The position numbers and the translations under genes are program-made. Below the pieces are notes generated by a model, which did not search any database, was not told the DNA's origin, and saw only the letters and a program-made list of their open reading frames with translations. From NCBI RefSeq assembly GCF_016902615.1, contig NZ_JACJMB010000020.1, positions 1-40,963 on the forward strand: 40,963 bases of DNA, read 5' to 3'. Of this stretch, positions 22,545 to 39,503 are shown piece by piece (position 1 is the first letter of the stretch; each line of letters starts with the position of its first letter). Source of the DNA: Collinsella tanakaei. Lineage in GTDB: Bacteria > Actinomycetota > Coriobacteriia > Coriobacteriales > Coriobacteriaceae.

Positions 22545-23671
22545 TGGCCAAGAAGAATTCGAACTACACCGACCTTAAGGAGAAGCCCATCCCCGAGGGG
22601 CGTCACCTGCTCGAGGTCGATAACCTCAAGATGTTCTTCCATACCGAGGACGGCATCGTCCACGCGGTGAACGGCGTGTCCTACACGCTCGACCGCGGCG
22701 AGACCCTCGGCGTGGTGGGCGAGTCCGGCTCCGGTAAGTCCGTGACCGCTATGACGATTATGGGCCTCATCGACATGCCCCCGGGCAAGATCGAGGGCGG
22801 CAACGTCTACTACCGTGGCGAGTCGCTGCTCGAGATGACCGAAGAACAGATGCAGCACATCCGCGGCAACGACATCGCGATGATTTTCCAGGACCCCATG
22901 ACCTCGCTGAACCCGGTCTATAAGATCGGGCGTCAGGTGGGCGAGGGCCTGCGCCTGCACCGCGGCTGCTCCAAGCAGGAGGCGCAGGAGCGCGCTATCG
23001 AGCTGCTCCGTCTCGTGGGCATCCCGAACCCCGAGAAGCGCGTGAACGAGTACCCGCACCAGTTCTCCGGCGGTATGCGCCAGCGCGCCATGATCGCCAT
23101 GGCGCTCGCCTGCGACCCCGACATCCTCATCGCCGACGAGCCCACCACGGCCCTCGATGTGACGATCCAGGCGCAGATCATCGAGCTCATGCAGGAGATG
23201 CAGCAGAAGAACGGCAACGCGATCATCATGATCACACACGACTTGGGCGTCGTGGCCGACATGGCCGACAAGATCATGGTCATGTACGCCGGCCGCCCGG
23301 TCGAGTTCGGCACCGCCGACGAGATCTTCTACGATTCGCGCCACCCCTACACCTGGGGTCTTATCCGCTCGATTCCCGAGCAGGCGATTGACGAGAAGAA
23401 GCCACTCAAGCCGATTCACGGCAACCCGCCGTCGCTCGTGAACCTCCCGAGCGGCTGCCCGTTCGCGCCGCGCTGCCCGTATGCGGTGGATATCTGCCAC
23501 GAGAAGGAGCCCGTCCACATCACGACGGAGACCGGCCACTACTCGGCCTGCCACTTCGCCGACGATCCCGAGTTCCTGAAGTTCGCTCCCGATACGTCGC
23601 GGTCTCGCGGCCATATTGCCACGGGTACGCCCGACACCATCGAATCCAAGCCCCAGGGAGGTGAGGCATAA
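22544..23671 (+). CDS. oppD: Oligopeptide ABC transporter ATPase OppD
   Basis: 375-residue ATPase energising peptide import. Walker A GESGSGKS (residues about 61-68), signature [14 protein letters not shown], Walker [14 protein letters not shown]-loop [10 protein letters not shown]-terminal oligopeptide-transporter extension with the cysteine cluster [17 protein letters not shown], which binds an Fe-S cluster in some homologues. About 22 residues precede the usual N-terminus. Translationally coupled to oppC. Confidence 0.95.
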
Positions 23672-23672
23672 G

Positions 23673-24701
23673 ATGGCCTCCAATACCACAGGCGAGCCCT
23701 TGCTCAAGGTTGAGCACCTCACCAAGGAGTTCCCCGCTGAGGCCGGCATGATTGCCGGGCGCTTCTCCAAGCGCGTCGTCTCGGCCGTGAACGACGTTTC
23801 GTTCGAGATCTACCCGGGTGAGACGTTCGGTCTCGTTGGCGAGTCCGGCTGCGGCAAGTCCACGACCGGCCGCACCATCATGCGCCTGACCAACCCCACC
23901 GCGGGCAAGGTCTACTTCGAGGGCAAAGACGTCTCGAAGATGAACAAGCATGAGCTGAAGGACCTCCGTCGTCAGATGCAGTTCATCTTCCAAGACCCCT
24001 ACGCGAGCCTGAACCCGCGTATGACGATCGGCGAGATCATCTCCGAGCCCATGACCATCCACAACGTGGGCACGAAGGAAGAGCGCATGAAGACCGTGCG
24101 CGAGCTGCTCGATGTCGTCGGTCTGAACCCCGAGCACATCAACCGCTACCCGCACGAGTTCTCTGGCGGTCAGCGCCAGCGTATCGGCATCGCCCGCGCG
24201 TTCGCTCTGCGCCCGAAGCTGATCATCTGCGACGAGCCCGTCTCCGCGCTCGACGTCTCCATTCAGGCTCAGGTTCTGAACCTGCTGAAGGAGCTGCAGG
24301 ACCGCTACGGTACCGCGTACCTGTTCATCGCGCACGACCTGTCCGTCGTGCAGCACATCTCCGACCGCGTGGCCGTGATGTACCTCGGCAAGATGGTCGA
24401 GCTCTCCGACTGGAAGACGCTCTACACCGAGCCGAACCACCCGTACACGCAGTCGCTGCTCTCCGCCGTGCCGGTGCCCGATCCGGACGTGCAGAAGACG
24501 CGCGAGCGCATCATCCTCGCAGGCGATCCGCCCTCGCCGATCGATCCGCCGTCCGGCTGCCGCTTCCATACTCGCTGCCCGATCGCCAAGGACATCTGCA
24601 GCAAGGAGCAGCCTGAGTTCAAGCAGGTCGCTCCCGGTCACTTCTGCGCGTGCCACTTCGCCGAGAAGTTCCCGATCAAGCAGTCCTCCATCGAGCTGTA
24701 G
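23673..24701 (+). CDS. oppF: Oligopeptide ABC transporter ATPase OppF
   Basis: 342-residue partner ATPase of OppD. Walker [10 protein letters not shown], signature [16 protein letters not shown], Walker [15 protein letters not shown]-loop IAHDLSVV, and the C-terminal [16 protein letters not shown] cluster. The start is ATG 23673, just after the oppD stop, with GGGAGGTGAGG upstream; an earlier in-frame start would lie inside oppD. The operon ends with the terminator at 24728. Confidence 0.95.
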
Positions 24702-24727
24702 CGAGCAGCTTGCATTGCTTTTCATGT

Positions 24728-24757
24728 GGGCCGTCCCATCTGGGGCGGCCCTTTTTG
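24728..24757 (+). terminator. Rho-independent terminator of oppBCDF
   Basis: GGGCCGTCCC (24728-24737), ATCT-type loop, GGGGCGGCCC (24742-24751) with one G-U pair, then TTTTT (24752-24756). It separates the operon from the second oppA. Confidence 0.92.
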
Positions 24758-24911
24758 ATAGGGTGAGCGCTCTCGGCGCGGTCCGGCGCGCCAGGGGGCA
24801 AGTTTCCTGGGAAAGATGCGCAGCCCGGCCGTTCTTGTGCATACGCGGCACGGCATGCGGGACAATGGGCCTACATGCACACGTATTGCTTGACATCGAT
24901 AGGGTGACGAT

Positions 24912-26612
24912 ATGGCTCGCTTCGATCTGATGATGAACAGAAGGGCGCTGCTCGGCGCTGCTGCCGCCGGTCTCGGTGCGCTGGCGCTCGGGGGCTGCTC
25001 GACGGGCGGCGCCGACGAGGGGTCGGACGCGGGAATCGCGTCGGTCGATGTGGTGGATGATTCGACGATCGTGGTGGGTATCGACCAGCCGGTCTGCCTC
25101 GACCCGTACTTCGCGAGCGCGCCGGCGAGCGCGCAGGCGGTCTTCCAGCTGTTCGATCCGCTCACGCGCTATGATTTCGAGACCGGGGCGCTCACGTGTC
25201 TTGCCGCTGAGAGCTATCGTGTGTCGGAGGACCAGCAGACGTTCACGTTCACGCTGCGCGACGCGACGTTCCACAACGGCGACTCGGTGCGCGCAAGCGA
25301 TTTCAAGCGCGCTTGGGAGCGCCTGGTGAGCCCTGAGAGCGCCGCTGCGACGGCGTGGGGCGGGCCGTCGTGGGCGGGTCATCTGCTGGCGCTCGTGGAG
25401 GGCTACAACGAGCTCCGCTCGGGCGCGGCTTCAAGCCTTTCCGGCGTGAGCTGCCCAGACGACCGGACGCTCACGGTGAAGCTCACCCGTCCGTATGCCG
25501 AGTTCCCCTATATCGTGTCGGCGCTGGGCCTCGCCCCGGTGCCGGCGTCTGCCGAGGATGATCCCGTTGCGTTCGGGGCGGCGCCGGTCGGCAACGGCCC
25601 CTTCATGGTCGCCGCCGAGCAGGGGCATCCCGATGATGCCTTCGACCTCGTGCGCTTCGAGGAGTATCTGCCCATGCCCGCCCAAATCGAGCGGGTCCGC
25701 TTCAGCTTTCAGGAAGGCGTGTCCGAATCGTACCGTGCGTTCGAGTCCGGCGACCTGATGGTGTCGGCCTGTCCCTTCAACGAGGTCGACGCCAACGCCG
25801 CCAGCTGGAAGTCGAACGATGATGAGCGGCTGCAGCTCAATTCGAGCCGCCATATGGTGCTTGGCAGCGAACCCGTGGTGTCGTATCTCGTGTGCAACAC
25901 CACCGTGGGGCCTCTGAACGATGCGGCTATCCGTCGCGCGCTGTCGATGGCGATCGATCGCGACGCGCTGTCGAAGCGGGTGTTCCGTGACGCGCGCATG
26001 CCGGCCTATGGCATCGTGCCGCCCGACATCCCCGGATACCGAGAGGAGGGATGGGCGGCTGCCGAGTACGATGTGTCGGCGGCCACCGACGCGCTCGATG
26101 CGCTGTACCCCAAGGGGGGCGATGGCGAGCGCGACTGCGCGATCTCTCTCCTCTACAGTGCAGACAGCGGTCACAAGAACGCAATGGAGCTGATCGCGGA
26201 GGACTTCGAGGCGGTGGGAGTGACCTGCGAGCTCGAGGAGGTCTCCTTCGAGGAGCTGTACGAGCGGCTCGAGGCGGGTACCTTCCAGCTTGCACGCATC
26301 GATTGGACACCGGATGTGCCCTGCATGGACAACGTGCTGTTCCCGCTGTTCCATTCGTCCGCCCAGGGCGGGTTCAACTTCTCGCGCTATGCCAACCAGC
26401 GGGTCGACGAGCTGATCGACCAGGCGCGGGCGACGGCAAGCGATACGGAGCGCATCGCGCGCCTGCGTGAGGCGGAGGACGTGATCGCTGCCGACATGCC
26501 CGTGATCCCGTACATCTTCGGTGCGCATGCCGTGGTGGGATCGCGCCAGGTCGAAAAGCTCCTCATCGATCCATATGGCTATGCGCATCTGGGGGAGGCG
26601 GAGCTTGCCTAG
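24912..26612 (+). CDS. Second OppA-like peptide-binding lipoprotein
   Basis: 566-residue family-5 solute-binding lipoprotein, a divergent paralogue of the oppA at 18725. NRRALLG (residues 9-15) is twin-arginine-like; lipobox LGGC places the lipid anchor at Cys29. It shares the framework of the first copy, for example FQLFDPLTRYDFE against FQLFDSLTQYNFE, and IVPPDIPGYREEGW against IVPPGIDGYEEGAW. The ATG has only a weak AGGGTG site and codon bias is milder, suggesting lower expression. A terminator and about 150 bp separate it from oppF, so it is regulated on its own. It probably supplies the same OppBCDF channel with different peptides. Confidence 0.9.
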   Translation: MARFDLMMNRRALLGAAAAGLGALALGGCSTGGADEGSDAGIASVDVVDDSTIVVGIDQPVCLDPYFASAPASAQAVFQLFDPLTRYDFETGALTCLAAESYRVSEDQQTFTFTLRDATFHNGDSVRASDFKRAWERLVSPESAAATAWGGPSWAGHLLALVEGYNELRSGAASSLSGVSCPDDRTLTVKLTRPYAEFPYIVSALGLAPVPASAEDDPVAFGAAPVGNGPFMVAAEQGHPDDAFDLVRFEEYLPMPAQIERVRFSFQEGVSESYRAFESGDLMVSACPFNEVDANAASWKSNDDERLQLNSSRHMVLGSEPVVSYLVCNTTVGPLNDAAIRRALSMAIDRDALSKRVFRDARMPAYGIVPPDIPGYREEGWAAAEYDVSAATDALDALYPKGGDGERDCAISLLYSADSGHKNAMELIAEDFEAVGVTCELEEVSFEELYERLEAGTFQLARIDWTPDVPCMDNVLFPLFHSSAQGGFNFSRYANQRVDELIDQARATASDTERIARLREAEDVIAADMPVIPYIFGAHAVVGSRQVEKLLIDPYGYAHLGEAELA

Positions 26613-26706
26613 CGCGGCTGTCGGCAGGCATGTACGCCGGTGAGCAGGCATGATGCCGGCGGAAAGGGCACACGCCGCCTGGACGAAAACTTTTTCAAAA
26701 AAGTTG

Positions 26707-26736
26707 TTGCATCCGGCGTGCGCCTTGGGCTAATAT
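26707..26736 (+). promoter_or_regulatory. Promoter of tRNA-Leu
   Basis: TTGCAT (26707-26712), 18-bp spacer, TAATAT (26731-26736), then ATTCCTCGC at the presumed start. A palindrome AACTTTTT-CA-AAAAAGTT lies directly upstream (26688-26705) and may serve as an UP element. Confidence 0.65.
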
Positions 26737-26755
26737 ATTCCTCGCCGAAAGGCAC

Positions 26756-26845
26756 GTCGGAGTGGCGGAATTGGCAGACGCGCTAGCTTGAGGTGCTAGT
26801 GACCACATTTCGGTCATGCGGGTTCAAGTCCCGCCTCCGACACCA
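26756..26845 (+). tRNA. tRNA-Leu (anticodon GAG)
   Basis: Acceptor GTCGGAG (26756-26762) pairs with CTCCGAC (26835-26841); discriminator A and encoded CCA follow. Anticodon arm CTAGC-TTGAGGT-GCTAG gives GAG. The long variable arm (TGACC...GGTCA) and the TTCAAGT T-loop confirm a class II leucine tRNA. Confidence 0.97.
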
Positions 26846-26855
26846 TCGGAGATAC

Positions 26856-26889
26856 ACCCGAGCTCCTCAGGGGTTCGGGTATTTTTTTA
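26856..26889 (+). terminator. Terminator of tRNA-Leu
   Basis: ACCCGAGCTCC (26856-26866), loop TCA, GGGGTTCGGGT (26870-26880) with two G-U pairs, then ATTTTTTTAT. Strong rho-independent terminator 10 bases after the tRNA. Confidence 0.92.
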
Positions 26890-27072
26890 TCTATATACCA
26901 AAACTAACTATCAACCCTTGCAGCAACCATTCACACGCCCGTCCGGGCATCGCGCGGTGGGCGATTTGCGCTGCCTGCGATTGCTCCTTTGGATATACTG
27001 CACTCGTGTGCCGCGTGGCGCCGCATCGGCGGGTCTGCGGCATGTGGACGGCGCGTCATCGGAGGTGCGACG

Positions 27073-29427
27073 ATGGAATCCATGATGGGGGAGCGTTTTG
27101 CCGAACTCGCGCGTCTCGTGGAGCTCACGAGCGACGCGGTTGCCCTCTGCGAGGCGAACGGCACGGTACTGCATGTGAACCACCAGATGGTCATCCTCGC
27201 GGCGGCTCAGCGCGACCGCCTCGTCGGCACCGACATCAAAGACATCATCTATAGCGACGATTTCGAGCGCGCCGAGGACCACCGCATGCCGTTCACGCTC
27301 GATGGCAAGGATGCCACCTGTCGCATCAAGCTGCCGGACGGCTCGTTCGTCCCCATACGCGTGCGCGCCCGCACCGTATCCCCCACGACGTTGGCTGAAG
27401 ACGGCGAGCGCGACCCGGTCGGGCGCATTCTGGTGGTCATCAACAGCCTCGAGGAGCAGTACACGCGCGACCGCCAGACGCAGCGCCTGTTTGCAGAGCT
27501 TCAAGCGGTCAACAGGCGCCTGTCGGGCACGCTGTCGGTCATCATGACCGCAGCGGGTTCGAAGGATCTGCCCTCGCTGCTCGACGCGGTGCTCAACAAG
27601 CTCGTGGACGCCCTCGATGCCGACGGCTCGTCGATCTACTTCTCCGAAAGCGGCGGCTTCAAGCTGCGCGGCGTGAGTTACGGCCTCATGCACGACTACG
27701 TGCCCGAGTTCATCCCGTACGGCTCGGGTATCCCCACTTACGTGCTGCGCGAGCAGCGCCCCTGCAGCCTCGCCATCGTGCCGTCGGCATATGGCAAGGG
27801 CATCGAGGCGAGCGTGTTCTTCGACTTCGATACCCACATGAGCACGCGCCTGCGCCTGGAGAACGTGCCGCCGTACCGCACGCTCATCGCGGTGCCGGTG
27901 TTTTTCGGTACGCAGGTGCTCGGAATCCTCGAGCTCGGCTGGAAACGGCCGTGCCGTCCGCGCGCGCTCGACGCCCGCGTGCTCGAGGTCATCTGCGACT
28001 ACCTGTCCATCGAGCTCGTGGGGCTGGTGAGCAGCCTGCGCGCCCAGCGCACCGAGGAGCTCACGCGCTCGCTCAACCGCATGCGCGAGCATCTGTTCGA
28101 CCAGAGCGAGGACCATGCCGCCGTCTGGCGCTTCGTGTCCGACGAGGTGCGCCGCGTGCTGAAGTGCCGCACGTGCTCCGTTGAGCTTGACCCCGACACC
28201 GGGCGCTACGTGATCGACTTCGAGGGCGGCAGCCGGGTGCACCTGCCCGACACGATCGAGGACATGTTCTTCTCGACGACCGCGCCGGCCGCTCGCGTCG
28301 ACCCGGGGGCGCACGCGCCGTTTTCAAACGGGGGACAAAGTTCGTGGCTCTGCTCACCTGAGGACCTCACGTCCGTACGCTTGGTGCGCGTGGACCAGAC
28401 GATGAGGGCGGGGGAGTGGCTCGCCTCGCGTGGGCTGCCGAGCCAGGGCGTGTTCTTCGACATACGGGCGGATATGGCGGCCGATGGCTCGGGCGAGCCG
28501 GTCGGCCGCACCGAGGGGGTGCCCGGCATGGTGCTGCTTCTGCGCGACAGCACCCAGGAGCCCGTCGACGATATCGAGTACGACTATCTGGTGCGCTTGG
28601 CGCACGATTTCGAGATCATGATGCGCGGCGTGCGCAAGACGAACTCTGAGCGCCATATCGCCCAGACCCTGCAGGTGGGCCTGCGCAGCGACCTGGGCAC
28701 CGTGCCGGGCATCACGACCGATTCGCTCTATTCATCCGCGACGCGTCAGGCGCTCGTGGGCGGCGACTTCTACACGCTCATTCGCCTGCCCGATGACCGC
28801 GCCGTCATGATTCTAGGCGACGTGTCGGGTAAGGGCATCGAGGCGGCGTCGATGTCTGCGCTCGTGAAGACCGCGCTGACGGCGTACGCCTGGGAGGGCA
28901 CGAGCCCGGTTTCGATGGTCCGCTCGCTCAACGGCATGCTCATGAGCTTCTCGCGCGTCGAGACGTTCGCGACCATGTTCGTGGCGAAGATCGACCTGCG
29001 CGCCGGCGTGGCCGAGTACTGCTCGGCCGGCCATCCGCCCACGGTGCTCATCCATCCGGCGAAGGCCGATCCGGACGACCCCGAGGCCGGCAGCCCCGCC
29101 GAGATCGAGCTTCTGACCGTGCAGTCCGGTGTGGTCGGCGCGTTCGAGGCCATGGTGTATGAGGGTGGAACCTTTACCTTCGAGCCGGGTGACATCCTGT
29201 TCATGTACACCGATGGCGCCATCGAGGCGAGAAGCCCGGACCGCGAGTTCTTCGGCGAGCGGAGGCTGTTTGACGAGCTTCTGCACGCGTCGGCCAACGG
29301 GGTCGAGGGGCTGTGCGGCACGGTGCTCTCGGCGCTCGATGCGTTCAGCGACTCGGAGCTCGACGACGATATCGCGCTCGTGGCGCTGCGCTTCGATACG
29401 GTGGGGGCAAGCGATGAGCAAAAGTAG
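27073..29427 (+). CDS. PAS/GAF-containing PP2C (SpoIIE/RsbU-type) serine phosphatase
   Basis: 784-residue cytoplasmic sensor phosphatase. Residues about 8-125 resemble a PAS domain (LVELTSDAVALCEANG start). About 165-330 look like a GAF domain, ending AVPVFFGTQVLGILELG. The PP2C domain is C-terminal from about 525: metal and catalytic motifs GGDFYTL (Asp565), LGDVSGKGIEAA, SAGHPP, YTDGAIEAR and DDDIALVAL are all present, so it should be active. Such enzymes dephosphorylate STAS antagonists in partner-switching pathways. The start is ATG 27073, five bases after GGAGGTG. The next gene encodes just such a STAS domain, the likely substrate. The signal sensed is unknown; no transmembrane helix is seen. 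Confidence 0.9.
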   Translation: MESMMGERFAELARLVELTSDAVALCEANGTVLHVNHQMVILAAAQRDRLVGTDIKDIIYSDDFERAEDHRMPFTLDGKDATCRIKLPDGSFVPIRVRARTVSPTTLAEDGERDPVGRILVVINSLEEQYTRDRQTQRLFAELQAVNRRLSGTLSVIMTAAGSKDLPSLLDAVLNKLVDALDADGSSIYFSESGGFKLRGVSYGLMHDYVPEFIPYGSGIPTYVLREQRPCSLAIVPSAYGKGIEASVFFDFDTHMSTRLRLENVPPYRTLIAVPVFFGTQVLGILELGWKRPCRPRALDARVLEVICDYLSIELVGLVSSLRAQRTEELTRSLNRMREHLFDQSEDHAAVWRFVSDEVRRVLKCRTCSVELDPDTGRYVIDFEGGSRVHLPDTIEDMFFSTTAPAARVDPGAHAPFSNGGQSSWLCSPEDLTSVRLVRVDQTMRAGEWLASRGLPSQGVFFDIRADMAADGSGEPVGRTEGVPGMVLLLRDSTQEPVDDIEYDYLVRLAHDFEIMMRGVRKTNSERHIAQTLQVGLRSDLGTVPGITTDSLYSSATRQALVGGDFYTLIRLPDDRAVMILGDVSGKGIEAASMSALVKTALTAYAWEGTSPVSMVRSLNGMLMSFSRVETFATMFVAKIDLRAGVAEYCSAGHPPTVLIHPAKADPDDPEAGSPAEIELLTVQSGVVGAFEAMVYEGGTFTFEPGDILFMYTDGAIEARSPDREFFGERRLFDELLHASANGVEGLCGTVLSALDAFSDSELDDDIALVALRFDTVGASDEQK

Positions 29428-29522
29428 CGCGCGCTGCCGCGGACAGCGACACGCTCCTGCCGTCTGCGTGCCAGCGTCTGCGCAGGTGAATAGTCGGTAC
29501 GGTCTGCGGGAACCATGAGCGT

Positions 29523-30269
29523 ATGAATGAGTGGAACGACATAGCCGTGATCACACCGGCTCACGACATCGACATCTCGACGGTGAGCGAGCTGCGCGAC
29601 AAGATCGACAACTTGATCGTGTCGGGCATCTATCGCGTGATGGTAAACTGCCAGCACGTGACGTTCATCGACTCGTCGGGTCTTGCATGCCTGATTTCCC
29701 GTTCGCGGCGCCTGAGCCGAGAGGGTGGCATGCTGTCGCTCGTCAATACCTCACCCAACGTCACGCGGTCGTTGCAGATCGCCCGCCTTATCGACGCCCT
29801 GCACGTGACGGCGGCAACGCGCCCACCGGTGCCCGTGCTCAAACCCGGGGCGATGCCGCTGTGGAGCAAGAGCATGTCGGTGCGACAGGGGGTGGAGCAC
29901 CTGGGGTACTACCGGCATCGAGTCGTGGACATGATCTCGGCGCTTCCCCTGAGCGACAGCGACCGGTTCGACATGGCGCTGGCGACCGGCGAGGCGCTCT
30001 CGAACGCGTACGACCATGCGAACGGGGCGGAAGGGTGTACGTGCATGGTGATCGCCTATCCCGACCGCGTGGTGATCGAGGTGCGCGACACCGGCGATGG
30101 TTACGAGATCGCGCCCGATGAGGTGCCCGATGGCAGCGAGGAGCGCGGGCGCGGCATCAAGCTCATGCGCATGCTCGCTGACAGCGTCGAGGTGCGTCGC
30201 CGCAAGGACACGCACGGGACGCTGGTTCGTCTGATCAAGCTGTTCGCCCTTCCCGTCGCCGCGGCATAA
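29523..30269 (+). CDS. STAS anti-anti-sigma domain fused to an RsbW/SpoIIAB-type HATPase domain
   Basis: 248 residues. The N-terminal STAS domain (about 1-105) has FIDSSGLACL with the phosphorylatable Ser51/Ser52. The C-terminal GHKL ATPase domain (about 125-245) has N-box ALATGEALSNAYDHA, G1 VRDTGDGY and G2 GRGIKLMRML. In classical systems these are two proteins: the kinase binds a sigma factor or phosphorylates the antagonist. Here both are on one chain, with the activating phosphatase encoded 95 bp upstream. The ATG 29523 has only a poor ribosome site; an ATG at 29515 runs straight into a stop. No sigma-factor gene lies nearby. The fusion might self-phosphorylate and be reset by the phosphatase. 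Confidence 0.85.
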   Translation: MNEWNDIAVITPAHDIDISTVSELRDKIDNLIVSGIYRVMVNCQHVTFIDSSGLACLISRSRRLSREGGMLSLVNTSPNVTRSLQIARLIDALHVTAATRPPVPVLKPGAMPLWSKSMSVRQGVEHLGYYRHRVVDMISALPLSDSDRFDMALATGEALSNAYDHANGAEGCTCMVIAYPDRVVIEVRDTGDGYEIAPDEVPDGSEERGRGIKLMRMLADSVEVRRRKDTHGTLVRLIKLFALPVAAA

Positions 30270-30363
30270 GGCGAGCGGCGATTCGCTGTTTTCCGTTTGC
30301 AAATGAATATGGTTCGAGGCTGCGCGCTGCTCGAGGAGGTGCGTGACGGGGATGACGCTGCAT

Positions 30364-30391
30364 ACGAGAAAGGGGCCCCGAAGGACCCCTT
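30364..30391 (-). terminator. Terminator of the first tRNA-Gly/tRNA-Cys pair
   Basis: On the - strand AAGGGGTCC, loop TTCG, GGGCCCCTT, then TCTCG. The stem bases are at 30383-30391 and 30370-30378 on the + strand. It ends the unit 9 bases after tRNA-Cys. Confidence 0.85.
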
Positions 30392-30399
30392 GAGCTGTC

Positions 30400-30473
30400 T
30401 GGAGGCGAAGCCCGGATTCGAACCGGGGGTAAAGGCTTTGCAGGCCTCTGCCTTACCACTTGGCCACTTCGCC
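30400..30473 (-). tRNA. tRNA-Cys (anticodon GCA), copy 1
   Basis: Reading the - strand, acceptor GGCGAAG pairs with CTTCGCC; discriminator U and encoded CCA follow, as expected for cysteine. Anticodon arm GAGGC-CTGCAAA-GCCTT gives GCA. The T-loop GGTTCGAATCC is intact. 74 nt including CCA. Confidence 0.97.
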
Positions 30474-30486
30474 ATCAATATGAGAA

Positions 30487-30508
30487 GGGCCGATTGAAGA
30501 ATCGGCCC
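30487..30508 (-). other. Hairpin between tRNA-Gly and tRNA-Cys, copy 1
   Basis: GGGCCGATT (30487-30495) and AATCGGCCC (30500-30508) form a perfect 9-bp stem with a 4-nt loop in the 46-nt spacer of the dicistronic tRNA transcript. It has no T-tract and may guide RNase processing. A shorter version exists in copy 2. Confidence 0.6.
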
Positions 30509-30519
30509 GAATCATGCGA

Positions 30520-30595
30520 TGGAGCGGACAACGGGGCTCGAACCCGCGACCCCAACCTTGGCAAGGTTGTGCTCTACCAACTGAGCCATGTCCGC
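30520..30595 (-). tRNA. tRNA-Gly (anticodon GCC), copy 1
   Basis: On the - strand GCGGACA pairs with TGTCCGC, discriminator U, CCA encoded. Anticodon arm CAACC-TTGCCAA-GGTTG gives GCC. 76 nt. First gene of the transcription unit with tRNA-Cys. Confidence 0.97.
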
Positions 30596-30607
30596 TTGCG
30601 AGGAAGT

Positions 30608-30636
30608 ACTATACGCGAGTTTTTCGACCTGTGCAA
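30608..30636 (-). promoter_or_regulatory. Promoter of the first tRNA-Gly/tRNA-Cys pair
   Basis: On the - strand TTGCAC (30636-30631), exactly 17 bp, TATAGT (30613-30608), then ACTTCCTCGC before the tRNA. A near-consensus strong promoter. Confidence 0.85.
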
Positions 30637-31190
30637 GCGTCCTTAACTTCTTCACATTTCCGGTTGAGCTAAGCGCGGGCTGTGTAATGCGAACCGCCGC
30701 GGTCCTGTTTGGTGGGGCGCGGTGTTTGGCTGGCGGACGATTGCGACCGCAGAAGGCGCGCCGCTCCAAGTGGGGATTCCAAGAATCGCAGACCAGGCAA
30801 GTAGGCGCCGGCTGGGGAGGCCCTTCACAGAGATAGCGCGCTGAGCGGAAGAGTGATGGCAACCAACTTGTCAAAAGTCTCGCTTGGAGATCTCCTTAGA
30901 GAGACTTTTGACAAGTTGGTTGCCGCCGATGCAGCTGATCGCTCGCCGAGGGCGCCAGATCGCCGCCAGGCGTCCGCAAGGGGAAGAGGGGAGCGCGGTG
31001 CGCGCGAGGGAGGCCTCGAGGAGCGTCTGATGCGGCACAGGAGGTGTGTTGGCGCCTTCGCCGCCGCCCGTGTCGTTTTACGCACCAGATTCGGGTGCTG
31101 AGGGTATCTGAGACGCCAGCTACATCCGCTCATCACGTTCGCCAACGAGAGCGCTCTCCGAGTGGCGAGCAGCGTGGGGTCTCCATACAT
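30637..31190. other. Spacer between the two tRNA pairs
   Basis: About 550 bp without a recognisable gene. A short + strand open frame at 30856-31101 (ATG of ATGGCAACC) begins inside the palindrome and continues as Arg/Ala-rich low complexity; I do not call it. The clear structure is the 24-bp perfect inverted repeat at 30858-30924. Confidence 0.5.
30858..30924. repeat. 24-bp perfect inverted repeat with a palindromic loop
   Basis: Arms 30858-30881 and 30901-30924 are exact reverse complements. The 19-nt loop itself contains the palindrome GGAGATCTCC (30886-30895). No T-tract on either strand. It shares no sequence with the palindrome at 17873 but is of the same size class. Its function is unknown; a small palindromic mobile element or a transcription block between the tRNA units is possible. 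Confidence 0.8.
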
Positions 31191-31193
31191 GAA

Positions 31194-31215
31194 AAGGGGT
31201 CCCGAAGGACCCCTT
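31194..31215 (-). terminator. Terminator of the second tRNA-Gly/tRNA-Cys pair
   Basis: On the - strand AAGGGGTCC-TTCG-GGACCCCTT is a perfect 9-bp stem followed by TTTTC when the terminal T bases of the stem are counted in. Nearly identical to the copy-1 terminator. Confidence 0.88.
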
Positions 31216-31223
31216 GAGCGTTC

Positions 31224-31297
31224 TGGAGGCGAAGCCCGGATTCGAACCGGGGGTAAAGGCTTTGCAGGCCTCTGCCTTACCACTTGGCCACTTCGCC
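31224..31297 (-). tRNA. tRNA-Cys (anticodon GCA), copy 2
   Basis: Same 74-nt sequence as copy 1 over the mature tRNA as far as I can compare by eye, including the GCA anticodon, U discriminator and encoded CCA. Confidence 0.97.
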
Positions 31298-31340
31298 GAT
31301 ATGAAAAGAGCCGATTAGAAAACCGGCTCCTGACATGCAA

Positions 31341-31416
31341 TGGAGCGGACAACGGGGCTCGAACCCGCGACCCCAACCTTGGCAAGGTTGTGCTCTACCA
31401 ACTGAGCCATGTCCGC
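31341..31416 (-). tRNA. tRNA-Gly (anticodon GCC), copy 2
   Basis: Same 76-nt sequence as copy 1, with GCC anticodon and encoded CCA. Upstream gene of the second pair. The spacer to tRNA-Cys carries the hairpin GAGCCG...CGGCTC. Confidence 0.97.
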
Positions 31417-31428
31417 TTGCGAAAAAGT

Positions 31429-31457
31429 AATATACGCGAATCGGGTGAGGTGTGCAA
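31429..31457 (-). promoter_or_regulatory. Promoter of the second tRNA-Gly/tRNA-Cys pair
   Basis: On the - strand TTGCAC (31457-31452), 17 bp, TATATT (31434-31429), then ACTTTTTCGC. The A/T-rich stretch just upstream (31461-31480) may be an UP element. Matches the copy-1 promoter in layout, while the spacer sequence has diverged. Confidence 0.85.
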
Positions 31458-31547
31458 GAGATTTTGAAAAAAAGTTTGAAGTCGGTCGTGAGGGCACTAC
31501 AGTATCCACCATGGGTACTGCGAGATTGCTGCACGGGAGGGTAGAGC

Positions 31548-32450
31548 TTGTTTAGGATTCTTCTCCTTGTCGTCTTGGTGTTTTTGCTTGCACGGGGCGT
31601 AGGCTGGCTGATCAGAAAGCGGCTGGATGCGCATAGCCCCGCGCGTGTGGTCACGAAGCTCATCGCGGAGGGGTATCTCAACGAGTCCTCCTTCTTCGCA
31701 GCGGCAAACGAGAAGGTTCGAACGGGCAGGCCGTCGCGCGCGCAGCGCCAGCTGATTCGGGACGCACGGGTGCGACGCCGTGACGCGTATCTCGCGCATT
31801 GCACGCCGTCGCCCTATCAGTACCTCATCATCTTCCTTTTGGCATCGGTCCTCGGGCTTGTGCTCGAGACCATCTATACGTTTGTGGCGTTCGGCGTCGT
31901 GGAGAGTCGCGTGGGACTCGTGTGGGGACCGTTCTCGCCGCTGTACGGTTTGGGGGCGGTGCTGCTCACGGTATGCCTGTGGCAGGTGAGGAGCCGACCG
32001 GGCTGGCAGGTGTTCTTGATATCGGCTACGCTCGGCGGCACGCTCGAGCAGTGCGCCGGCTGGAGCCTGGACCATTTCGCGCATCTGCAGTCGTGGACCT
32101 ATCTCGGCCTACCTGATCACATCACGCAGTGGATCGCATGGCGCTTCCTGTTCATGTGGGGCGTGATCGGCCTTGTGTGGTGCCGCCTCATCATGCCGGA
32201 GCTCATCTACCGCATCGGCGAGCCCTCGACGCGCGGCCAGGCGGTGGTTGCGACATTTCTGACGATCTTCACGTTGCTCGACATCGCCTTGACGCTCGGG
32301 TGCTTCTGGCGGGCGGGACAGCGCCATCAGGGGGTTCCGCCGCAGAACCCATTCGAGGTCTATATCGATACGCACTTCGACGACCGTTTTATGGCCGAGA
32401 CGTTTGAGAACATGCGCATCGGCGAAGATATCCCACCGGCGCCTCGATAG
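31548..32450 (+). CDS. Integral membrane protein, CmpB-like (putative ABC transporter permease family)
   Basis: 300-residue membrane protein. An N-terminal helix (1-22) is followed by a basic cytoplasmic segment to about 85, then four to five helices. VWGPFSPLYGLGAVLL and ATLGGTLEQCAGWSLDHF match the signature blocks of the ABC_trans_CmpB family (GP..P.YG.GA and GG..E). Family function is unproven; no ATPase lies beside it. The start is TTG 31548, six bases after GGGAGGG; no ATG with a site lies near. It stands alone between tRNA genes. Confidence 0.75.
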   Translation: MFRILLLVVLVFLLARGVGWLIRKRLDAHSPARVVTKLIAEGYLNESSFFAAANEKVRTGRPSRAQRQLIRDARVRRRDAYLAHCTPSPYQYLIIFLLASVLGLVLETIYTFVAFGVVESRVGLVWGPFSPLYGLGAVLLTVCLWQVRSRPGWQVFLISATLGGTLEQCAGWSLDHFAHLQSWTYLGLPDHITQWIAWRFLFMWGVIGLVWCRLIMPELIYRIGEPSTRGQAVVATFLTIFTLLDIALTLGCFWRAGQRHQGVPPQNPFEVYIDTHFDDRFMAETFENMRIGEDIPPAPR

Positions 32451-32973: not shown

Positions 32974-35049
32974 ATGGCCGGTCAGGTTGACGTAAAGAAG
33001 CAGATAGACACCGTTTTCAGTATTGCCAACACCCTGCGTGGAACGTATCAGGCGGATAAATATCGTGACGTCATCATTCCCATGACCATCCTCCGTCGCC
33101 TCGAATGCGCCCTTGCGAGCACCAAGGATGCGGTCTGCGAGCTCTATGAGAAGGACCCTGGGACGCCAGAGCAGATCCTGCGCCGCAAGGCAGGGTACGA
33201 CTTCTACAACACGAGTCGTTGGTCGCTTGCCAAGCTGCTCGGTGATCCCGCTCAGCTGCACAAGAACCTTAGAACTTATATAGACGCTTTCTCGCCCAAC
33301 ATCAAGCAGATCTTCGCGGACCTCGAGTTCGACAAGGAGATTACCAAGATGCACAAGGGCTCCAAGCTTACGGGCGTCGTCCGCAAGTTCTCGGAGCTCG
33401 ACCTGGATCCAGGTGCGGTCAGCAACGTGGCCATGGGATACATGTTCGAGGAGATCATCCGCCGCTTCTCGGAGAACGCGGAGGCGGGCGACCACTACAC
33501 CCCTCGCGAGGTCGTTCGCCTCCTCACGCGGCTCGCCCTCGCGGAGGGCTGCGAGGACCTGAGCGAGCCGGGGAAGGTCATCAAGGTGGGCGACTTTGCG
33601 TGCGGAACGGGCGGCATGCTCTCCTGTGCGAAGGAGCTCCTGGACGAGATCTGCCCGGATGCGGACGTCTACCTCTACGGGCAGGAGATCATTCCCGACA
33701 CGCACGCCATCTGCCTCGCTGACATGCTCATCAAGGGCCAGCGCGCGGAGAACATCCGCCAGGCGGACACCATGAAGGAGGACTGCTTTCCCAACGACAA
33801 GATGCGCCTCGTGCTCATGAATCCGCCCTTCGGTCAGCCGTGGGGAGGAAAGGACGCAGGCGACGGCGTGGAAAAGGCTGTCAAGGACGAGTACGCGAAG
33901 CTCGACAGCAGGTTCCCGGCAGGCCTCCCCGCCAAGAGTGACATGCAGCTCCTGTTCATGCAGCACGTCATGTATAAGCTCGACGACGAACATGGGCGCG
34001 CCTGCGTGATCTCCAACGGCTCGCCTCTCTTCTCCGGCGGGACCTCGTCGGGTGAGTCCCAGATTCGCCGGTGGCTCCTGGAGAACGACTACGTGGAGGC
34101 CATCGTCGGGATGCCGGGGGACCTCTTCTACAACACGGGAATCGCCATCTACGTGTGGGTGCTCTCGAAGAACAAGGCCCCATGCAGGCGCGGGCTCGTC
34201 CAGCTCATCGACGCCACCTCCGAGTGGGTGCCCATGCGCCGCTCGCTTGGCAACAAGCGCAAGCAGGTCTCGGGCGAGCAAATCGAGGAGATCGTCAAGC
34301 TCTACACGGACTTCCAGGAGGGCGAGAAGTGCTGCATCCTCCCCAACGAGGAGTTCCTCTATCACGAGTACGCGGTGTACCAGCCCCTTCAGCGAAGCTA
34401 CCAGATAACACCCGAGCGTATCGACGACCTTGCCGCGCGAAAGTTCAAGGACGACTTCCACAACCCGGCAAAGCTCGAGGAGCTCTCGCTCATCGACGAG
34501 GCTGACATGAGCTCCAGGCAGAGAAAGCAGCTCGAGGGCCTGCGCGCTGCCGAGCCGGTCTTCGAGCGGATGCTCGCGCTCTTGAGGGACAATGTCATGA
34601 AAGAGCCGACTCAGGACTACAAGGCCTTCGGCAAGATGGTGAGTGACCTTCTCTTCACCCTTCCGGACTACAGGGACGGCGAGACTCCCGCCCAGAGGAA
34701 GAGCGTCGTGGACAAGGTGGTGGACGCCATGTCCGAGATGGACAAGACGGCGCCCCTGCGCTACAGGCGTGATGGGTCCGTGGAGTACGACCCTTCCACC
34801 AAGGACACGGAGATCGTAAGGCTCTCCGAGGACGTCGAGGAGTACTTCGAGCGCGAGGTCTATCCCTATGTTCCCGACGCGAAGTGGTTCGACGAGGAGA
34901 CCGACAAGGCGGTGAAGACGGGGGCGGAGATTCCGTTCACGCGCTACTTTTACGCGTACGTGTCACCTGAGCCCTCGGACAAGCTGCTCGCCGAGTTCAG
35001 CCGCCTGGAGATTGAGCTGCAGGATCAGCTCAAGGAGTTGATGGCATGA
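32974..35049 (+). CDS. hsdM: Type I restriction-modification system, DNA methyltransferase subunit HsdM
   Basis: 691-residue N6-adenine methyltransferase; with HsdS it forms the methylase, and with HsdR the restriction complex. N-terminal HsdM helical domain about 5-150; SAM-binding motif I DFACGTGGML at 207-216; catalytic motif IV NPPFG from Asn283. It is longer than the usual 500-550; residues about 520-691 form a C-terminal extension that contacts the other subunits in longer HsdM types. GGGGGAG lies seven bases before ATG. Its stop overlaps the hsdS start (ATGA). Confidence 0.95.
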   Translation: MAGQVDVKKQIDTVFSIANTLRGTYQADKYRDVIIPMTILRRLECALASTKDAVCELYEKDPGTPEQILRRKAGYDFYNTSRWSLAKLLGDPAQLHKNLRTYIDAFSPNIKQIFADLEFDKEITKMHKGSKLTGVVRKFSELDLDPGAVSNVAMGYMFEEIIRRFSENAEAGDHYTPREVVRLLTRLALAEGCEDLSEPGKVIKVGDFACGTGGMLSCAKELLDEICPDADVYLYGQEIIPDTHAICLADMLIKGQRAENIRQADTMKEDCFPNDKMRLVLMNPPFGQPWGGKDAGDGVEKAVKDEYAKLDSRFPAGLPAKSDMQLLFMQHVMYKLDDEHGRACVISNGSPLFSGGTSSGESQIRRWLLENDYVEAIVGMPGDLFYNTGIAIYVWVLSKNKAPCRRGLVQLIDATSEWVPMRRSLGNKRKQVSGEQIEEIVKLYTDFQEGEKCCILPNEEFLYHEYAVYQPLQRSYQITPERIDDLAARKFKDDFHNPAKLEELSLIDEADMSSRQRKQLEGLRAAEPVFERMLALLRDNVMKEPTQDYKAFGKMVSDLLFTLPDYRDGETPAQRKSVVDKVVDAMSEMDKTAPLRYRRDGSVEYDPSTKDTEIVRLSEDVEEYFEREVYPYVPDAKWFDEETDKAVKTGAEIPFTRYFYAYVSPEPSDKLLAEFSRLEIELQDQLKELMA

Positions 35050-36389
35050 TGGCGGAGGGGATGAGGCCGAGCGGTGTCGAATGGATCGGGGATATTCCGG
35101 TCTCTTGGAAGATGGGGCGCCTTAGATATCTGGCATCCTTTGAATCCGGTGCAACACCGAGCAAGGACATCTCCGACTTCTGGGACGGCGAGATTCCCTG
35201 GGTTTCCTCACAAGAGGTCAAGACAGACGTTCTGACCGATACTTCTCTTCATATTTCCGTTAAGGCTGTTGAGAGCTGTTCCACAAGACTGCTTCCCGAA
35301 GGGACTGTTGTTATGGTGGCTCGCTCCGGCATCCTTCAGCACACACTTCCAGTCGCGTTGCTTGCATGCCCAATGACAGTCAATCAGGATATCAAGGCGC
35401 TGACTTTCAATGACCAAGTGCTGGGCAAGTTCTTTCTTTACTTTGTCAAGGGAAATAACGACAACCTTTTGAAGGTTCTTCTTAAGGATAAGTCCACGGT
35501 CGACAATATCAGTTTCGATTATCTTCTCTCCCTCAGGGTTCCGGTGCCGCCCATTGAGGAACAAGAGCGTATAACGAAGTATCTGGATACATTCTGCAAG
35601 AGCGTTGAGTTCTGCATCGGCTCAATCGAACGGCAGATCGACTTGCTGGAACGGTATCGCTCCTCCGTAATTCACGAGGCCGTAACCAAGGGCCTTGATT
35701 CAAATGTACCCATGAAGCCAAGTGGCGCGGAATGGGTCCATTCCGTGCCGGAGTCCTGGCGGGTTGAACCTTTGAAATACCACTGCTCGATGTTCAAGGG
35801 CCTCCCGATACTAAAGACCGACCTTGTTGAGGAGGGCGTGCCCGTCATAAGCTACGGGCAGATTCACTCGAAGGACAACACGGGAGCCCATTTGGATGAC
35901 AGCCTGCTGAGGTTCATCCCGGCGAACAGAGTGTCGGGAAGCGAATCGTCAAAGCTCCAGAGGGGCGACGTCGTATTCGCCGACACGTCGGAGGACGTCG
36001 AGGGGATAGGCAACGCTGCGCTGATTGATACGGACGACGTCGTCTACGCCGGCTATCATACCGTGACCTGCCGTTCCGACCAAACGAGCCTGAGCGGCCG
36101 TTATCTCGCCTATCTGGCCAGAACCGATGCCTGGCGCTATCAGCTCAGAAATCTCGCGATGGGCGTCAAGGTGTTTAGCATTACCCAGGCTATTCTCAGA
36201 AAAGCCGAGGTTCTCCTTCCGCCTCGCGATGAACAGGAGCGCATAACGGATTTCCTCGACGATCGATGCTCAGCCATCGACGCCGTCATCAACACAAAGC
36301 GCAAGCAGCTCGACGTTCTCAAGAAGCGCCGGCAATCCCTCATCTACGAGTATGTTGCCGGCAAGCGCCGTGTCGGTACGAAAGGATAG
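35046..36389 (+). CDS. hsdS: Type I restriction-modification system, specificity subunit HsdS
   Basis: 447 residues; sets the bipartite DNA target. Two half-repeats, each with a variable recognition domain and a conserved helical spacer. The first starts at WIGDIPVSWK and its spacer begins EEQERITKYLD (about 172-182); the second starts WVHSVPESWR (about 234) and its spacer begins DEQERITDFLD. The spacer repeat is visible in DNA: 35559-35576 and 36231-36248 differ at 2 of 18 bases. The first recognition domain is lower in GC than hsdM, typical of exchangeable target domains. Translation is coupled to hsdM. No second hsdS fragment or invertase is present, so phase switching is not indicated. 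Confidence 0.94.
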   Translation: MMAEGMRPSGVEWIGDIPVSWKMGRLRYLASFESGATPSKDISDFWDGEIPWVSSQEVKTDVLTDTSLHISVKAVESCSTRLLPEGTVVMVARSGILQHTLPVALLACPMTVNQDIKALTFNDQVLGKFFLYFVKGNNDNLLKVLLKDKSTVDNISFDYLLSLRVPVPPIEEQERITKYLDTFCKSVEFCIGSIERQIDLLERYRSSVIHEAVTKGLDSNVPMKPSGAEWVHSVPESWRVEPLKYHCSMFKGLPILKTDLVEEGVPVISYGQIHSKDNTGAHLDDSLLRFIPANRVSGSESSKLQRGDVVFADTSEDVEGIGNAALIDTDDVVYAGYHTVTCRSDQTSLSGRYLAYLARTDAWRYQLRNLAMGVKVFSITQAILRKAEVLLPPRDEQERITDFLDDRCSAIDAVINTKRKQLDVLKKRRQSLIYEYVAGKRRVGTKG

Positions 36390-36391
36390 CT

Positions 36392-39300
36392 ATGGCTGGG
36401 CAAGGTGTCTCTATAGAGTACGACTCCATGGCTCCTCGCAGGAGCCCTCTTACGGAGCGTGACTTTCAGAACATCATCATCGACCAGCTCGTGCATGAGA
36501 ACGGGTATGTGCGCAGGCTCGCGAAGAGGAGCTACGACCCGATTCTCGCCATGGACTCGGAGCTGCTGATTGACTTTCTCGAGCGGACGCAGCCAGAGGC
36601 GATCGCTCGCCTGCAAGCAATCTATGACGGGGGTTGGCGGGAGACCGTGATCGCCAGGATTGCCAACGAGGTCGCCGAGCGCGGCCTAGTGAGGGCCATC
36701 TGGAACGGGGTCTCGTTCGATTCCGGAGTCGAGCTCAGTCTCGTGCACCCGCGCCCCTCCGCAGGCTTCGACCTCGCGGCGGCGGAGCTCTACGAGCAGA
36801 ACGTCCTCTCCTGCATGGACGAGGTCTACCACAAGGAGGATGAGCGGATAGACCTCGTCATCTTCCTGAACGGCCTCGCAATCTTCACCCTGGAGCTCAA
36901 GTGCGAGAGCTCGGGTACCGGTTGGAGTTACCGGGACGCCATCAGGCAGTATAAGTTCGAACGAGACTGCAAGACGCGCCTGCTCATGCCCAAGGTCGGC
37001 GCGCTTGCGCACTTCGCCGTAGACCTGTCTGAGGTCTGGGTGTGCGCCGAGCTCAGGGGTGGGGACTCGAAGTTCCTCCCGTTCAACAAGGGCGTGCGCG
37101 AGGAGGGGGCGGCACACGAGACGCGCGCGGGCAACCCCGTGGAGGAGGGGAAGATCCCCACCTCCTACCTCTGGGAGGAGGTGCTCAAGCGGGACTCGGT
37201 CTTCTCGCTCATCTACGACTTCGTGTACTACGCGCGCGACCGGAAGTCCAGGAAGAAGAGGGACGAGAGGCCCATATTCCCTCGATACCAGCAGATGCGT
37301 GCCGTCACGCGCATCGCGGGGGACATCGCGAGGAACGGGACGCTCAGAGACTACCTCGTGGAGCACAGCGCCGGATCAGGTAAGACGAACACGATCTGCT
37401 GGCTTGCGCACAAGCTCGCGGGACTCTACGCCGAGGGTGAGGATGACCTGCTCTTCTCAAAGGTCCTTATTGTCACCGATCGCATCGTCGTTGACCGCCA
37501 GCTCCAAGCGGCGGTGACCGACATGGCGAAAGCGCCTGGGACGGTCCGCGTGATCGACTCCGAGGGAAGGGCCGACGAGAACGGGGAGACGAGCAAGTCG
37601 GGCAAGCTCTCAAAGGCGCTTGCAGGCAATTACCGCATCGTTGTGTGCACCATGGCGACGTTTCTCAACTTGGAGCGAGGCTTCTTCGATGGAACGGGCT
37701 TTCGCTTCGCCGTCCTCATCGACGAGGCCCATGGATCGACCTCAGGTGAGACAATGGCGGCGGTCAATGGTGCGCTGTCGGACATTGATCTCCAGGAACC
37801 CTCGGCCATCGACCGCGTCTCCCAGCTCGTCTCGGAGGACATTGCCCGTTCTGGCAGACAGCGCAACGTCTCTATCATTGGCTTTACGGCAACTCCGACC
37901 GGGCGGACGCTAGACATGTTCGGCACGCTCAACAAGGAGGGCAAGAAGGAGGCCTTTGACCTCTACTCCATGCGGCAGGCGATCGAGGAGGGGTTCATCC
38001 TCGACGTCACCTCCAACTACACGACCTACGACTCGTTCTGCCGCGTCGTCAAGTCCATCCCGGACGACCCTGAGCTCGAGACCGCCTCCGCGAAGCGGCA
38101 GCTAGCGCACCTCATTTCCGTGAACGACGGGACCGTCGAGGGAAACCTCCGCGTCATCGTCAACCACTTCACGTGCTGCGTGCAGGGGGACCTTGGCGGC
38201 AGGGCGAAGGCGATGATTGTGACGTCGAGCCGCGAGGCGGCGGTTCGCTATCGCTTGGCGTATGAGGCGCTCCGACGGGACAACATGGGTAAGCTCGGGC
38301 ACGTTCGGGCTCTCGTTGCGTTCTCGGGAGAGATTTGGGTCGATGGGGAGCGCTACACGGAGGTTCTGATGAACGGGGGCCTCGCCGAGAGCAAGCTGCC
38401 CGACGTGTTCGCGCAGGACGGGTACCGCCTGCTCATCGTCGCCGACAAGTATCAGACCGGCTTCGACGAGCCGCTCCTCTCTGCGATGTACGTCGCCAAG
38501 AAGCTCCACGGGCTCTCCGCCGTTCAGACGCTCTCGCGTCTTAACCGCATATGTCCGCCGTATGAGAAGCGTCCCTACGTGCTCGATTTTGCTAACAGCT
38601 ACGAGGACATTGCGGCGGCGTTCGCGCCCTACTACGAGACCACCGTGCTCGAGAACCCCATGACGATCTCCGACCTACGCGAGACCGAGCGCAACCTGGA
38701 GGAGACGGGGGTGCTCGACGCGGACGATGTGCGCGAGTTCTACCGTCTTCTCGCCAAGGGGAAGCAGTCCAACTCGGACAAGGAGCGGATGTGGTCTCTT
38801 CTTGCGCGCGCAGCGTCCTCGGTCAAGGCGATGGACGGTGAAGATGCCGAGGTCACTCGGAGAATCATCCGCCACTTTTGCCGGCAGTACTCGTTCCTCA
38901 TCATGGCGTCGCCCTTTATGGACGAGTACATGCACATGGAGTACCGCTTCTGCCAATATCTGATTCACGAGATTAGCGTGACTCACGGCGGCGGGGAGGG
39001 GCTCGACATTTCCGACAAGGTCGAATTCGCCGATTTCACGGTGGAGAAGTCTGGCGAGTATTTCGGTAAGGCGCTCGAGGCCTCGCCGACCGTGACGATA
39101 GCGAGGGGCATCGGCACTGCGCTCACCAAGGACCAGATGGAGACGCTCTCGAGAATCGTGGCGGAGTGGAACGCGAGGTATGGCAAGAGCTTCGACACGG
39201 ACGTCGCAGCGAGCTCGCTCTTGACGCTGAGAGGCACTCTGAGCGCCAACGAGAAGGTGCGGAGGAGCGCCCGCGTCAACTCAAAGAGGGACTTCGCCAA

Positions 39301-39466: not shown

Positions 39467-39503
39467 TTGGTCCGCCGGATGGATTAGAAGGAGTTTGGGA
39501 GTA

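Follow-up and report, generated by a model that had tools for sequence, protein, structure and literature searches.

A PP2C phosphatase and a STAS-kinase fusion of Collinsella tanakaei as a candidate input module of a SigB/SigF-type stress switch

Two described systems come close to the gene pair considered here. In Mycobacterium smegmatis, RsbW1 serves as anti-SigF factor without kinase activity, and a second protein, RsbW2, in which the N, G1 and G2 boxes are present, phosphorylates RsfB at Ser63 and shows no SigF binding (PMC7693655). The phosphate is taken off RsfB by RsfR, a PP2C phosphatase encoded nearby (PMC10950880). In Rv1364c of Mycobacterium tuberculosis, PAS, PP2C, kinase and STAS domains are joined and the kinase phosphorylates its own STAS domain at Ser600, as reported (PMC10950880, PMC9138534). 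The present study deals with a stretch of 40,963 nucleotides from Collinsella tanakaei (NZ_JACJMB010000020.1, hereafter the window), which is contig 12, in our numbering, of a 2.45-Mb genome in 92 contigs. It carries a gene pair for a PAS/GAF-PP2C phosphatase and a fusion of a STAS domain with a GHKL kinase domain. We consider it rather probable that this pair provides the kinase and phosphatase input of a general-stress switch of SigB/SigF type, the other parts of which are encoded elsewhere in the chromosome.

By analogy, the Collinsella pair would work like the M. smegmatis and the Rv1364c systems while belonging to neither of them. With the SigF switch of M. smegmatis (PMC7693655, PMC10950880), it shares a non-kinase anti-sigma factor beside the sigma gene, a separate kinase with intact boxes, a phosphorylatable STAS antagonist and a PP2C gene near the kinase gene. 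However, kinase and STAS domain are two proteins in M. smegmatis and one chain in Collinsella, which does not have a dedicated separate kinase, and the mycobacterial PP2C is a receiver-domain protein under a histidine kinase, whereas the Collinsella phosphatase bears PAS and GAF domains. Rv1364c is alike in combining phosphatase, GHKL kinase and STAS domains and in keeping kinase and substrate in one chain, but it is a single PAS-PP2C-kinase-STAS protein, whereas in Collinsella two genes with the same reading direction are found and the STAS domain precedes the kinase. The initial annotation had contrasted the fusion with known systems in which antagonist and kinase are separate proteins; given the precedent of Rv1364c this contrast cannot be upheld, since kinase and substrate in one chain are already known (PMC10950880, PMC9138534). 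The RsbP/RsbU-RsbV-RsbW-SigB system of Bacillus subtilis corresponds in protein families and in the logic of the PP2C input, but there RsbW is kinase and anti-sigma factor at once, whereas these roles appear separated in Collinsella and RsbV, RsbW, sigma and kinase genes are not found in one operon. Four hallmarks of a SigB/SigF-type switch were found, namely a PP2C with its metal aspartates, a STAS domain with acceptor serine, a GHKL kinase with intact boxes and an RsbW-like gene beside a SigB/F sigma gene. As in M. smegmatis, the sigma-adjacent anti-sigma factor is devoid of ATP (adenosine triphosphate)-site residues (N-box Asn in 0/55).

The sigma gene is remote from the pair. Five Sigma70_r2 matches were found in the genome, on contigs 5, 46, 19, 89 and 3, and a sigma match was absent from each of the 73 fusion loci fetched, with lengths between 2.4 and 20.7 kb, which agrees with the initial statement that no sigma gene is nearby. 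That annotation had proposed either a remote sigma factor or a non-sigma output, and the former now has a possible candidate in the SigB/F/G-type gene on contig 46 (TIGR02980, 287.1 bits at a cut-off of 234.35). Directly before it, with a one-base overlap, lies a gene for a 125-residue RsbW-like protein, and such a gene was found directly upstream in all 55 fetched sigma loci. Judged from the alignment, these RsbW-like proteins look catalytically dead. The N-box Asn is absent from all 55 and replaced by Tyr (44), Phe (6), Leu (3), Trp (1) or Cys (1), the second glycine of the G1 box (Gly79) occurs in 2 and Asp77 of the same box in 22 of the 55, and a G2 box was not seen in the alignment. Their profile matches RsbW of B. 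subtilis (6m36, 7.5e-6), with the tyrosine aligned to the N-box Asn, and weakly the anti-SigF RsbW of Mycobacterium tuberculosis (8jzt, 0.17). HATPase_c_2 was matched by all 19 scanned members with expectation (E) values up to 0.1, member 1 being under the curated cut-off, and in the kinase-domain tree 31 of 33 rows labelled as anti-sigma factors group (99/95) apart from the fusion kinases. The ATP-site residues are also missing from sigma-adjacent RsbW-like sequences of other Coriobacteriia orders. In another 41 RsbW-like sequences, taken from further orders and classes, the motif DxGxG did not occur, a G2 match was found only in L237 and an N-box match only in L273, where the gene adjoins rsbV and not a sigma gene. 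Because the RsbW-like protein lacks ATP-site residues, the kinase and anti-sigma roles appear to be split over two proteins, and nothing requires the fusion to act as anti-sigma factor; if the antagonist is under phosphorylation control, the kinase therefore has to come from elsewhere.

The STAS-kinase fusion carries all residues expected of such a kinase. As described in the initial annotation, it is a protein of 248 residues with intact N, G1 and G2 boxes, the box residues being present in 73 of 73 loci, and among the proteins of the genome it alone exceeds the family cut-off of HATPase_c_2. Asp50, Ser51 and Gly53 of the STAS domain are each found in 73/73 fetched loci, whereas position 52 is variable (Thr 32, Ala 24, Ser 13, Met 2, Leu 1, Cys 1). 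Hence, of the two acceptor residues considered initially, Ser51 and Ser52, only Ser51 is conserved. The domains of the AlphaFold model are fair (mean predicted local distance difference test, pLDDT, 76.0; predicted template modelling score, pTM, 0.59), but the linker stays below 50, so that the cis or trans geometry is not readable from the model. Phosphorylation of the fused STAS domain in cis is possible. LvrC of Leptospira (9qih), the top Foldseek match of this model, was not used further (template modelling score 0.42, root-mean-square deviation 18, not rigid).

The partner gene encodes an RsbU/SpoIIE-type phosphatase in which all metal motifs had been recognized, and the comparison supports this, since Asp565, Asp583, Asp714, Asp765 and Asp766 are each present in 71/71 aligned orthologs and the SpoIIE/PP2C match reaches 1.6e-44. 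In most Collinsella orthologs the aligned start coincides with the ATG at 27073. Between GAF and PP2C, residues 348-517 gave no Pfam match; the order of secondary structure, from which alone it is deduced, makes a second GAF-like domain probable. The phosphatase model is weak (mean pLDDT 61.6, pTM 0.37), and among solved structures it is matched best by 3ke6, which covers the domains RsbU and RsbW from Rv1364c. A second PP2C match in the genome, on contig 2, is weak.

For the comparison 73 fusion loci (65 distinct proteins), 55 anti-sigma loci and 25 RsbV loci were fetched, which are subsets of what exists. STAS and kinase domain are joined in all 73 fusion loci, so that a sequencing error fusing two genes, the refutation foreseen initially, is ruled out and the fusion is genuine; since the whole fused frame is conserved down to about 32% identity, chance is likewise excluded. 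In 71/73 loci the phosphatase gene precedes the fusion gene on the same strand; the exceptions are L149 and L159, with their best phosphatase match on the opposite strand. In the order-wide search of 395 genomes (match defined as E <1e-30; the counts of this and of the class and phylum searches are those among the matches listed), the fusion was detected in 65/65 genomes of the family of the window (f1), in at least 130 of 140 genomes of family f2 and in at least 3 genomes elsewhere in the order; it was not found in family f4. We take f1 for Coriobacteriaceae, f2 for Atopobiaceae and f4 for Eggerthellaceae. A profile search gave full-length fusion matches also in other orders of the class, where phosphatase and fusion genes adjoin in 6 of 7 loci and the sensor part is often larger; in L289 a phosphatase match was not seen, and this stretch stops at a contig end. 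In L284-L287, from these other orders, the open frame encoding the neighbouring PP2C extends up to about 1100 residues, hence the sensor part seems widely variable. Outside the class, among the matches listed for 396 genomes of the phylum, two-domain matches carry a stop between the domains, and all seven loci read (L271, L273, L274, L276, L278, L280, L282) contain STAS and kinase as separate adjoining genes. The kinase domains of 19 fusions form one group (98/90), and the fused STAS domains a single group in an unrooted tree (97/85). Spread and groupings fit one fusion event at the base of the class, in which an rsbV-rsbW pair would have lost a stop.

Besides the STAS domain of the fusion, the genome contains only one other, the lone RsbV on contig 67, the Asp-Ser-Thr-Gly motif of which is present in 25/25 fetched loci. 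In the 80-genome panel, sigma was found in 55 and lone RsbV in 56 genomes (E <1e-15), belonging to those families that also have the fusion. A stressosome of RsbR/RsbS/RsbT type was considered and rejected, because RsbS/RsbR STAS proteins are lacking, the two STAS proteins being accounted for by the fusion and lone RsbV.

According to the model that we favour, the sigma factor of contig 46 would be sequestered by the RsbW-like product of the gene immediately upstream, which after loss of its ATP site would act as a pure anti-sigma factor unable to phosphorylate. The lone RsbV would be the antagonist, with Ser57 as candidate phosphorylation site. The STAS-kinase fusion would have taken over the kinase role, keeping RsbV phosphorylated in trans and thereby inactive, and would probably act likewise on its own Ser51. 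Activation of the PP2C by its PAS/GAF sensor would then lead to dephosphorylated RsbV, which could bind the dead RsbW and free the sigma factor. The fused STAS domain most likely serves as a built-in phospho-domain for tuning or docking kinase and phosphatase and not as the main antagonist. Within this model the domains, the conserved residues, the missing ATP-site residues beside sigma and the co-occurrence are observed, whereas every step of binding, phosphorylation and signalling is inferred.

The assignment of the antagonist role rests on the comparison of both STAS types. In the 23 genomes with all parts, 19 of 100 residues are invariant in lone RsbV, including the stretches Tyr-Ile-Asp-Ser-Thr-Gly and Gly-Val-Leu, whereas in the fused STAS domain only 3 of 89, namely Asp, Ser and Gly, are invariant, a count that is reduced by one very divergent row (G346). 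We read this as retention of a two-partner contact surface in lone RsbV and of the acceptor only in the fused domain. Moreover, the lone-type RsbV and not the fused STAS clusters with RsbV of other Actinomycetota (97/85, unrooted), and in G803 a lone-type RsbV gene stands directly before those of anti-sigma and sigma factor. These three observations disfavour the alternative that the fused STAS domain is the antagonist of the dead RsbW, like RsfB or the STAS domain of Rv1364c, while lone RsbV provides a second input. In that case the fused domain would be phosphorylated in cis or in a dimer, dephosphorylated by the PP2C and would capture the anti-sigma factor while still joined to the kinase. 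Ser51 is invariant in all 73 loci, the seven read loci outside the class have STAS and kinase as neighbouring genes, and in M. smegmatis rsfB adjoins rsbW2 and the PP2C gene (PMC7693655, PMC10950880). Because the STAS protein adjoining the kinase is the main antagonist there, which would favour the fused domain over lone RsbV, this alternative was kept, although we regard it as unlikely.

Co-occurrence was evaluated in 121 selected Coriobacteriia genomes, 80 from the 395 of the order and 41 from a class draw, with 8 genomes of other classes and a repeated G045 excluded. With presence defined as E <1e-30 (order) or <1e-40 (class) for the fusion and <1e-100 (order) or <1e-35 (class) for sigma, and among the matches listed, 90 genomes have both, 27 neither, 2 the fusion only (G045, G790) and 2 sigma only (G392, G764), which is consistent with a functional link. 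A physical link was found in G746 from outside the class, where genes for anti-sigma factor, sigma factor, RsbV, a second RsbW-like protein, a STAS protein and an intact kinase lie within 2.7 kb (L271, 1231-3977) and this kinase branches as sister to the fusion kinases (100/98); G746 is a single draft genome, 71% complete, with a long branch. Both findings argue against a self-contained phospho-switch with a non-sigma partner, in which the co-occurrence with sigma would reflect shared ancestry, and so does the anti-sigma factor without ATP site, which needs an outside kinase if RsbV is phospho-controlled. Such an output is quite unlikely in our view, but G045 and G790 retain phosphatase and fusion in the apparent absence of the sigma/anti-sigma locus, and the 73 fetched fusion loci are free of sigma matches throughout. 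The further alternative of a classical bifunctional anti-sigma kinase of SpoIIAB/RsbW type that binds the remote sigma factor directly would fit the observation that the fusion kinase domain resembles SpoIIAB and RsbW both by sequence and by predicted fold. It is very improbable, because the SigB-type sigma gene has its own RsbW-like neighbour in 55/55 loci, the fusion reaches 25.7 bits at RsbW and SpoIIAB equivalog cut-offs of 145 and 135, and RsbW2, the M. smegmatis counterpart, does not bind SigF (PMC7693655).

Several results weigh against an input module for a SigB/SigF-type switch. Among the 27 genomes with neither gene 19 belong to family f4, hence co-occurrence is confounded by descent and few independent events stand behind the numbers 90 and 27. 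In G045 (98% complete) and G790 (94%) sigma and anti-sigma genes were not detected, whereas the phosphatase gene adjoins the fusion gene in both and G045 also keeps RsbV; either the sigma/anti-sigma locus is missing from the assemblies or the module serves another output as well. This weighs against a role tied to sigma alone. Conversely, G392 and G764 contain the sigma gene but gave no full fusion match among the matches listed. Unaligned motif searches hit a single motif in each of 11 rows among the 55 of the anti-sigma factors, DxGxG in one case, a number consistent with chance, and the profile-profile comparison of anti-sigma factor and fusion gave a weak match (probability 14.7, E 0.0018) that was not used. 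SigB-type promoters before the three loci, searched with three consensus patterns, were no commoner than in shuffled sequences or on the reverse strand, so that autoregulation through such a promoter was discarded.

The switch outlined here is a candidate for the general-stress circuit of Collinsella and its relatives, of which no description was found in the literature searched; the one paper listed for Collinsella and RsbW was a kidney-disease study (PMC7554637), no paper on partner switching in Coriobacteria was found, and Collinsella was not named in any of the 15 papers listed of 321 in a broader search. The separation of kinase and anti-sigma roles, experimentally shown in M. smegmatis, is thereby suggested to be deep in Actinomycetota, with the fusion arising once in Coriobacteriia. 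This raises the testable question why the kinase is linked to a STAS domain when a free RsbV is also retained. It is conceivable, if doubtful, that the kinase of Coriobacteriia was fused once to a non-antagonist STAS domain serving as phospho-memory and that a second, sigma-independent output exists, since the fusion is retained in G045 and G790, where a sigma/anti-sigma locus was not detected. If true, Ser51 would report the kinase/phosphatase balance and compete with RsbV for both enzymes, providing a threshold or timer that is not known from described partner switches.

Table 1. Predicted features of the phosphatase and STAS-kinase fusion genes in the window
Feature	Position	Strand	Basis
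PAS-GAF-(second GAF-like)-PP2C phosphatase, 784 residues, RsbU/RsbP-like	27073..29427	+	Open frame and Pfam
PAS-like domain, residues 11-102	27103..27378	+	PF00989, 20.5 bits, below cut-off of 22.6
GAF domain, residues 164-313	27562..28011	+	GAF_2 PF13185, 3.5e-11
Probable second, divergent GAF-like domain, residues 348-517	28114..28623	+	Secondary-structure order in weak model
PP2C/SpoIIE phosphatase domain with metal aspartates	28789..29394	+	PF07228, 1.6e-44
STAS-kinase fusion, 248 residues, single chain	29523..30269	+	Open frame and Pfam; one kinase-tree group
STAS domain, fusion residues 5-94	29535..29804	+	PF01740, 4.3e-16
Ser51, predicted phospho-acceptor (Asp-Ser-x-Gly)	29673..29675	+	73/73
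Linker, fusion residues 96-112	29808..29858	+	Low model confidence at 88-100; no invariant residues in 23 genomes
GHKL kinase domain (HATPase_c_2)	29892..30239	+	Pfam 3.2e-17; Foldseek matches with SpoIIAB and RsbW
N box, Glu157 to His165, including Asn161	29991..30017	+	Glu157, Asn161, His165 73/73
G1 box Asp-x-Gly-x-Gly, 189-193	30087..30101	+	Asp189, Gly191, Gly193 73/73
G2 box Arg-Gly-Arg-Gly, 208-211	30144..30155	+	Gly209, Arg210, Gly211 73/73

Regarding the surroundings, the two genes are preceded by a tRNA-Leu gene, and an Rfam search over 26500-31600 returned tRNAs only. A tRNA-Cys/tRNA-Gly block occurs twice downstream of the pair, at 30369-30637 and 31193-31458 (97% over 105 nt, 86% over 160 nt), and the two copies are separated by a stretch that contains an inverted repeat of 27 nt (96%) at 30858-30924. 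Genes for a type I restriction-modification system (HsdM, HsdS and a SWI2/SNF2-type HsdR), followed by a DUF2806 gene, occupy a stretch of lower GC content at 32974-40472. Upstream of tRNA-Leu, the region 23616-26609 encodes the ATPase of an oligopeptide-type ABC transporter and a family-5 solute-binding protein.

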